From a virus, in IMG/VR virus record IMGVR_UViG_3300038701_000859, positions 1-43,522 of that record: a stretch of DNA of 43,522 nt; one strand, given 5' to 3'. The notes beneath the pieces are model-generated. The model ran no database searches and was not told where the DNA came from. It worked only from the letters and a program-made list of their open reading frames with translations. Position numbers and translations under genes: made by a program. Shown piece by piece: positions 21,636 through 43,522 of the stretch. Each line of letters opens with the position of its first letter. Positions within the stretch are counted from its first letter, which is position 1.

Positions 21636-21670
21636 TAAATGACACTTAGCTGCCACTTAAGTGTCATTTA
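21636..21670. other. 13-bp perfect inverted repeat with 9-nt loop
   Basis: 21636-21648 pairs with 21658-21670 (arm TAAATGACACTTA). It starts at the stop codon of the wHTH-like gene and ends before the ribosome site of the next. There is no U-tract in either direction, so it may be an operator or RNA processing/attenuation hairpin. Confidence 0.6.
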
Positions 21671-23780: not shown

Positions 23781-23802
23781 GGTTTCTCCTTTATTGGTTG
23801 GT

Positions 23803-23830
23803 GTGGGGATCCCCGCCAAGGGATCCCCAC
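23803..23830 (-). other. 11-bp perfect hairpin upstream of the clamp gene
   Basis: 23803-23813 pairs with 23820-23830, loop of 6 nt. It lies between the stop of the 23836 gene and the clamp ribosome site and has no U-tract. Confidence 0.5.
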
Positions 23831-23835
23831 AGGGT

Positions 23836-24252
23836 TTAGTTAGTGGTTGTCAGAATCCCGTCCGCTGCGGCATCGCACTGTTTAAGGAAATCGCGTGGCA
23901 ATTCCTCAAAAAGCCAGCTGCTGCCCAAACGGTAGCCGCACTCGGTACACACGTGCTGCGGGTTTGTTGCCCAGGTGAACCCGAGCGCACGCTGGTGCTC
24001 ACACTCTGCCCGCATGTCATTAAGGTGCCAGCGATCCCAAAGCTGCTTAAGGGCTTCTGGTGCTGATCCTTGGGCCTGTCCGCACGCCATTGGGTGTGAT
24101 GAGTGTTTACGGTATTCCTCACCAGTAAAAGACGCGGTAGTTTTGCCGGTCTGTTCGTCGTGTCGTATTTCGAGAGTGATCACTGTTCGATCTCCCATGC
24201 TGTCCCGGTAAGGGCCGTAGGTTCTCGTTACTGTGACATTTCCTCTGCTCAT
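23836..24252 (-). CDS. Hypothetical zinc-ribbon protein, 138 aa
   Basis: First gene of the long replication operon. Beta-rich N-terminus (VTVTRTYGPYRDS... TVITLEIRHDEQTGKTTASFTG), then a helical part with HLNDMRAECEHQ and a C-terminal CTECGYRLGSSW zinc-ribbon half. GGGAGAAG site before ATG; a promoter lies about 45 bases upstream. Possibly a regulatory or DNA-binding protein. Confidence 0.65.
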   Translation of the reverse strand: MSRGNVTVTRTYGPYRDSMGDRTVITLEIRHDEQTGKTTASFTGEEYRKHSSHPMACGQAQGSAPEALKQLWDRWHLNDMRAECEHQRALGFTWATNPQHVCTECGYRLGSSWLFEELPRDFLKQCDAAADGILTTTN

Positions 24253-24322: not shown

Positions 24323-24425
24323 CTTTGCCACGAAGGTTTGCAATTCGGTGGGCGTGTCGCCTATTCCGGCCCGCAAAATGCACCTTTTTAGATTGCCAAG
24401 CCACTTTGCCAGCTTGCTCCTACTA

Positions 24426-24469
24426 TTTTTCTTAGATACCGTCGAGTCAACGACGGTATCTAAGAAAAA
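24426..24469. repeat. 19-bp perfect inverted repeat
   Basis: Arms 24426-24444 and 24451-24469, 6-nt loop. The T-run is on the left and the A-run on the right, so neither strand has the 3' U-tract of an intrinsic terminator. Better suited to a cruciform, protein-binding palindrome or structured RNA. Confidence 0.85.
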
Positions 24470-24488
24470 ACAAAAAAATAAAGCAACA

Positions 24489-24525
24489 CTGAACGCCCAA
24501 CGCCGCAGAGCGGCTAGGCGTTCAG
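24489..24525. repeat. Compound hairpin (9-bp outer, 5-bp inner stem)
   Basis: Outer arms CTGAACGCC (24489-24497) and GGCGTTCAG (24517-24525); inner arms GCCGC (24502-24506) and GCGGC (24510-24514) with an AGA triloop. All pairs are perfect. Confidence 0.75.
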
Positions 24526-24605
24526 GGCAAGGGACAGAGGAGACGGCCACAAAAGTGGCCTAGACATCATCCAAGGGGACAGAGCTTGGGGGACATCGGG
24601 GGATG

Positions 24606-24660
24606 GATCGATAGGAATTAGGGAATGGATTAGGCAGAATTAGATCGATAGGAATTAGGG
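24606..24660 (+). repeat. 18-bp direct repeats (iteron-like)
   Basis: GATCGATAGGAATTAGGG at 24606-24623 and 24643-24660, 37 bp apart, with a degenerate GGATTAGG copy between them. The second copy abuts TTATCCATA. Confidence 0.85.
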
Positions 24661-24699
24661 GTTATCCATATTTTTATTGCGGCAAATTAAAAGTGTGCT

Positions 24700-24723
24700 G
24701 GCTGTTTGTCCATCTTGATTCCT
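24700..24723 (-). repeat. Boundary element copy A
   Basis: Plus strand reads GTCCATCTTGATTCCT. On the minus strand this is AGGAATCA followed by ATGGACAAACAG, a ribosome site plus MDKQ start. It lies just beyond a terminator. Related copies at 25043-25070 and 25741-25757. Confidence 0.7.
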
Positions 24724-24738
24724 GTAGTAAAAAAAATT

Positions 24739-24762
24739 ACCGGGGCCCCGTAGGGCCCCGGT
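24739..24762 (-). terminator. Intrinsic terminator of the 24773-24940 gene
   Basis: Perfect 10-bp GC-rich stem (24739-24748 with 24753-24762), UACG tetraloop on the minus strand, followed by eight T within AATTTTTTTT. Confidence 0.9.
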
Positions 24763-25042: not shown

Positions 25043-25070
25043 GCAGCCTGTTTGTCCATTTGATTCCTCT
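25043..25070 (-). repeat. Boundary element copy B
   Basis: Shares TTTGTCCATTTGATTCCTCT with copies A and C, and TTTGGTAACAAT (25031-25042) with copy C. On the minus strand it provides AGAGG and an ATG opening a 67-codon MDKQ frame (24856-25059) that crosses the P2 promoter. Confidence 0.7.
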
Positions 25071-25696: not shown

Positions 25697-25740
25697 AGCC
25701 CTAGTTTGGTAACAATCAGATAACGGCAGCCAGCCAAAAA

Positions 25741-25757
25741 GTCCATTTGATTCCTCT
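25741..25757 (-). repeat. Boundary element copy C
   Basis: GTCCATTTGATTCCTCT is identical to part of copy B. It lies between the 25775 terminator and P3. TTTGGTAACAAT recurs at 25705-25716. Confidence 0.7.
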
Positions 25758-43343: not shown

Positions 43344-43522
43344 GTGCAGGATAAAATTGTCTTTTTTCAGTCCGCTTCGGAGTTGCCGGAGGGTTTGTCT
43401 CTTGCTGACTACGAGTACCAGTTTTATACAACGAATGCGGGTAAAGAGCTTCTTACTGTCGAGGAGGCAGATCTTGAGGACGGTGATGTTCTTGCTTATG
43501 ATGCTGCGGAACAAAAGTGGAT
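43344..43522 (+). CDS. Collagen-like fibre protein, 5' part (continues at base 1)
   Basis: GTG start with AGGAG 5 bases upstream. Encodes DKIVFFQSASELPEGLSLAD and onward; the frame runs off the window in the 122-bp terminal overlap and continues in frame from base 4 into the Gly-X-Y repeats. Serves as attachment domain of the collagen-like fibre. Confidence 0.8.
   Translation, partial: MQDKIVFFQSASELPEGLSLADYEYQFYTTNAGKELLTVEEADLEDGDVLAYDAAEQKW
43400..43521. repeat. Right copy of 122-bp terminal direct repeat
   Basis: Identical to 3-124; see that entry. Implies a unit length of 43,397 bp if closed. Confidence 0.9.

Follow-up and report, generated by a model that had tools for sequence, protein, structure and literature searches.

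The replication operon of this phage is headed by a perfect 19-bp inverted repeat, H1, whose left arm contains a sigma-70 -10 box, and a covarying hairpin of this design, in conserved synteny, was found in 17 phages, among them the cultivated Microbacterium phage Shocker. A -35 element is kept at promoter spacing outside the stem, and an intrinsic terminator follows the hairpin in about half of the relatives. The reading ranked first, tentatively and at somewhat less than even chances, is that H1 is a hairpin-gated promoter (P+) of a short RNA that would control, or prime, replication. A replication origin is ranked second, and both may be true.

The element and its genome context

The window (the whole stretch of DNA analysed, 43,522 nt) is the whole phage genome: its ends (1-124 and 43399-43522) overlap by ~124 bp, with the last bases mismatched, and the record can be closed into a circle. 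The gene joined across the overlapping ends encodes collagen-like repeats. The plus strand carries the structural genes, while the replication operon runs leftward from about 24252 to 11639 and encodes DNA polymerase I, an AAA_25/DnaB-like helicase, a Sak4-like annealing protein, a second DNA helicase and a primase-like protein that matches phrog_10514 (DNA primase). As the initial annotation had stated, the H1-H2 region lies directly upstream of the minus-strand gene starting at 24252 and thus of the leftward operon. No relatives of the helicase were found in the bacterial genomes searched. The features of the element are:

24414-24419, plus strand: -35-like hexamer TTGCTC of the rightward promoter P+, 17 bp from the -10; weak (3/6), supported by comparison
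24422-24450, minus strand: possible overlapping leftward promoter TTGACT-17-AATAGT, with its -35 within the H1 loop and its -10 at the left foot of H1; tentative, with a similar pair in ~10 of 15 genomes
24426-24469, no strand: H1, perfect 19-bp inverted repeat (arms 24426-24444 and 24451-24469) with the 6-nt loop AGTCAA; covarying, centred on the predicted P+ start
24437-24442, plus strand: -10 hexamer TACCGT of P+, in the H1 left arm; TAnnnT in 17/17 elements
24449, plus strand: predicted P+ transcription start in the H1 loop, placed from the -10 position
24489-24525, no strand: H2, two-tier hairpin with 9-bp outer arms and GCCGC/GCGGC inner arms
24545-24560, no strand: H3, small hairpin GGCCAC-AAAA-GTGGCC
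24606-24623, plus strand: 18-mer repeat GATCGATAGGAATTAGGG, copy 1
24643-24660, plus strand: 18-mer repeat GATCGATAGGAATTAGGG, copy 2, identical to copy 1
24651-24666, plus strand: block GGAATTAGGGGTTATC; a similar AGGGG..TAT block occurs in relatives
24662-24670: DnaA-box-like word TTATCCATA
24705-24723, no strand: family motif GTTTGTCCAYTTGATTCC, beside terminators on the minus strand
24739-24762, minus strand: intrinsic terminator serving the minus-strand gene on the right; marks the element's right border

The palindrome, the hairpins and the pair of 18-mers that the initial annotation had described at 24426-24670 are all present, far beyond chance; for the 18-mer with up to 3 mismatches, 0.02 occurrences were expected per window and two were found. 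Folded as single-stranded DNA, 24420-24540 gave -36 kcal/mol, compared with -10.4 for shuffled sequence (z = -10.9). It had also been noted that H1 cannot be a normal terminator on either strand, and this was borne out: in place of a GC stem followed by a T-run, the T-run is on the left and an A-run on the right, and a terminator scan of the window did not list H1. A protelomerase-type site at H1 was ruled out, as the centre is not palindromic.

Several other conserved or repeated sequences were seen around the element. The motif GTCCAYTTGNTTCC occurs in the window at 24705-24723, about 25051-25069 and about 25738-25756, and in the early regions of the relatives; family-wide, it lies ~20 bp beyond the minus-strand terminators of early genes. 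The conserved block GGGCGTGTCNC, at about 24340-24365 in the window and also in relatives, lies ~60-90 bp to the left of H1, with leftward promoter-like sequences close by. Two more perfect inverted repeats, at 21636-21670 (13 bp) and 23802-23831 (12 bp), are near the ends of the genes at 21668 and 23819.

Distribution and covariation of the hairpin

The family consists of actinobacteriophage-like phages. Syntenic contigs were gathered by searches with the DNA polymerase and the helicase and were scanned for inverted repeats, with no promoter criterion. Eight genomes had a long hairpin in the equivalent position, ~3-4 kb upstream of the helicase gene (the window, G002, G010, G011, G013, G015, G016 and G023). 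A hairpin-plus-promoter pattern scan added L091, L110, L118 and Shocker, and a covariance model added L093, L119, G022, G020 (also seen in the inverted-repeat scan) and L136, for a total of 17; several of these are close relatives, so the sequences are not independent and the counts are not counts of independent events. Each genome had one strong H1 match, matches on the opposite strand being the same palindrome. The covariance model found no H1 match in Jasmine, Brad, DS1 and several distant contigs. Comparison of the region with known phages by DNA similarity gave no match, and the exact palindrome was not found in viral contigs. No counterpart of H3 was noticed in the relatives. In Arthrobacter phage Jasmine, a ~700-bp gap among the early genes (L133, 6180-6420) contains many CTATC repeats and hairpins unlike H1, and is possibly the origin of that group. 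In L055, L057 and L067 (G011, G013 and G015) a second unit of promoter, hairpin and terminator lies ~130-150 bp left of H1; one example of this smaller unit of the same design is TAGCATGAGTCC-TTGAG-GGACTCATG.

Comparison with relatives for compensatory changes had been proposed as a check, and such changes were seen. The letters of the H1 arms vary among the 17 sequences, yet the arms stay complementary, with 15 of the 18 pairs double-changed. The covariation score was 0.603; shuffles gave 0.164 and slid pairings no more than 0.226. The alignment had been fitted to the covariance model, so some bias towards structure is expected, but the same covariation was obtained when 12 sequences were folded independently and their pairs lined up on the -10. 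G-C and C-G pairs are freely flipped, while an AT-rich foot and a GC-rich core are kept, which fits conservation of a structure rather than of a sequence that is read. Wobble is rare (4 G-T among 222 predicted pairs), in agreement with pairing in DNA. The left arm would be absent from the P+ RNA, so that pairing of the arms must take place at the DNA level or else in some other transcript. Extrusion of H1 is estimated to require a critical superhelix density of -0.03 to -0.056, assuming 3 kcal/mol for the junction, which places the estimated thresholds within the physiological range. By inspection, most elements have a bulge or mismatch beside the -10, and the right arm of most has a one-base insertion. 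The arm sequence had matches of only 9-10 nt elsewhere in the genomes, the same as random 19-mers, and an antisense immunity RNA pairing with the arms was ruled out by these chance-level matches.

The putative promoter in the stem and its predicted RNA

The conserved -10 box inside the palindrome, with a -35 just outside it, was overlooked by the initial annotation. The fixed letters of the stem are those of a sigma-70 -10 box, TAnnnT, in the left arm, and a TTG-type -35 lies outside the stem 16-18 bp away. In an alignment of 12 sequences (A2) the invariant columns were TTG at -35 and the T, A and T of TAnnnT; four of these 12 had been chosen by a pattern demanding TTG and TAnnnT, so the unbiased set is the eight inverted-repeat hairpins. 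All eight, found without a promoter criterion, have TTG 16-17 bp upstream of TAnnnT. TTG and TA...T are the strongest positions of the sigma-70 hexamers. The consensus score of P+ was 7.5, compared with 5.7 in shuffles, and none of 200 shuffles scored as high. Variants of the -35 in relatives include TTGACA, TTGACC and TTGCCC; L093 and L119 have no TTG at this position. The spaced hexamers conserved in relatives are weak in the window itself, where the -35 and the -10 each have 3/6 and a simple promoter scan misses P+. The same scan calls a minus-strand promoter in H1, at the chance rate.

An intrinsic terminator follows H1 at about +30 to +60 in about half of the relatives. A strict plus-strand terminator scan after H1 was positive in 7 of 17 elements (G011, G022, G016, G023, L119, Shocker and L118, with terminator ends at roughly +40 to +65), compared with 0-5% in shuffles, and found no T-run terminator in the window, G002, G010, L091, L093, L110 and G020. 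Imperfect terminators follow H1 in G013 and G015, and in L136 the TTTT that follows H2 gives it the look of a terminator for the P+ RNA. In G011, G013, G015 and G022 the terminator stem includes the right arm of H1 itself. These terminators point to a non-coding RNA about 45-90 nt long, transcribed rightward, as the likely product of P+, predicted from the sequence, with no open frame behind it; on the plus strand of the window no clear gene was found right of H1, up to 26.5 kb. An R-loop formed from a U-poor linker was ruled out because the composition is too variable among relatives.

In the proposed mechanism, P+ would be a rightward sigma-70 promoter built into a cruciform-capable hairpin. 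The left arm would contain the spacer and -10 box and the right arm the first ~20 bases transcribed, with the start in the loop between them. The short non-coding RNA would consist of the right arm, a purine-rich linker and a terminator hairpin, either H2 or one of its own. RNA polymerase would use P+ on relaxed or freshly opened DNA. Negative supercoiling, or melting by the polymerase at about -11 to +2, would extrude H1, locking the -10 in the stem and turning the promoter off, so that P+ would act at the start of the early/replication region as a self-limiting switch that senses DNA topology. A stricter version, in which opening by the polymerase nucleates the -10-locking cruciform and the terminated primer RNA starts replication once per template, is unlikely. 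Cruciform gating leaves the bulge or mismatch beside the -10 unexplained.

Alternative readings and known systems

The initial annotation had proposed a replication origin or a new structured RNA here. A structured element next to the replication operon was upheld and is conserved; the DnaA box and iterons that accompanied the proposal are not. In the origin reading, transcription from P+ would open the DNA, an R-loop or short primer would form, and primase and helicase would load at H1 and H2 folded on the exposed single strands, as in RSF1010 and pRN1. This is doubtful but has to be taken seriously, given the primase-like protein and the DnaB-like helicase of the neighbouring operon, a combination reminiscent of replicons with stem-loop origins; the operon also encodes the Sak4-like protein and DNA polymerase I. 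In pRN1 and RSF1010 (ssiA/ssiB), covarying or essential stem-loops are likewise paired with primase and helicase genes, and in Bordetella phages with such proteins a stem-loop origin has been proposed (PMC4234260). H1 keeps its structure while its sequence is little conserved, as in the pRN origins, and is present once per genome. Against an origin, the 18-mer pair is found in the window only, relatives keeping at most one related block (a single AGGGGTWAT-like block between H2 and the GTCCA motif, once each in ~10 relatives), whereas RSF1010 has iterons; and TTATCCATA is not kept in relatives, such words being common in the window, where TTATCCACA with at most one mismatch occurs 15 times. 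GC skew, suggested earlier as a check, is uninformative here: it tracks gene strand, reaches its detrended minimum at 26.3 kb and does not switch opposite H1. Likeness of the primase-like protein to archaeo-eukaryotic primases was not established: it matched no solved structure, reached only a weak E of 0.035 against Pfam, and gave a poor structure model (pLDDT 46). An origin alone also leaves the -10 inside the stem unexplained; the stem-loops of pRN1 and RSF1010 are not described as promoters in the available text, unlike H1 with its promoter-like site. In the literature searched, no paper mapping an origin in phages of this group was found.

The dyad of H1 is centred on the predicted start, which would suit an operator bound by a phage regulator of P+ and the overlapping leftward promoter, the arms covarying as the specificity of a symmetric dimer drifts. 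The leftward promoter-like pair shares H1 and scored 7.8 against 6.4 in shuffles (~10 of 15 genomes), a result whose weight is limited by a loop sequence shared by descent. However, complementarity of ~18 bp per arm is unlike a dimer reading fixed half-sites, and the equal-strength G-C/C-G swaps and the one-base right-arm insertion in most elements misfit a dimer, making an operator improbable. Placed just after it, and similarly improbable, is a structured RNA with antisense control, in which H1 and H2 would belong to a leftward leader regulated by the P+ RNA, an antisense transcript begun in the H1 loop, much as plasmid copy number is controlled in ColE1 and pIP501. Antisense RNAs are often directed against hairpin loops in their targets. 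Partly covarying hairpins like H2 follow H1 in the relatives, and in most of these the minus-strand fold is the more stable, so H2 may have a role as RNA; but no conserved leftward promoter was found right of H2 by inspection, G-U pairs in H1 are very few, and an Rfam search of the element, with H1 and H2, gave no match reaching the gathering score.

The hairpin-gated promoter has its closest parallels in two systems. To our knowledge, cruciform-regulated promoters are known mostly from N4 and laboratory constructs. One E. coli promoter controlled in this way is reportedly a laboratory construct, unlike H1, which is conserved by covariation in natural phages and for which gating is here proposed. 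In that promoter, as proposed for P+, cruciform extrusion switches transcription off (Horwitz and Loeb 1988, as cited in PMC6060812). The early, virion RNA polymerase promoters of N4 resemble H1 in having an inverted repeat within the promoter that can be extruded under supercoiling, and stem letters that may partly vary as long as they pair; when an N4 hairpin was inserted between the rrnB -35 and -10, transcription was abolished until gyrase was inhibited (PMC4496689). The N4 hairpins are short, recognised by the phage polymerase and activating, whereas H1 is ~18 bp long and spans a host-type -10, which it would be expected to block. Cluster A mycobacteriophages (L5 and D29) make abundant small non-coding RNAs, comparable to the predicted P+ RNA; unlike for P+, no hairpin-embedded promoter is described for them in the available text of PMC5712189.

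A host-type promoter inside a covarying hairpin is kept in 17 phage genomes, and the element is the best localised origin candidate in this phage family. Cruciform control of promoters becomes testable in a natural system, and since Shocker is a cultivated relative that carries the element, RNA mapping, hairpin probing and deletion are feasible.
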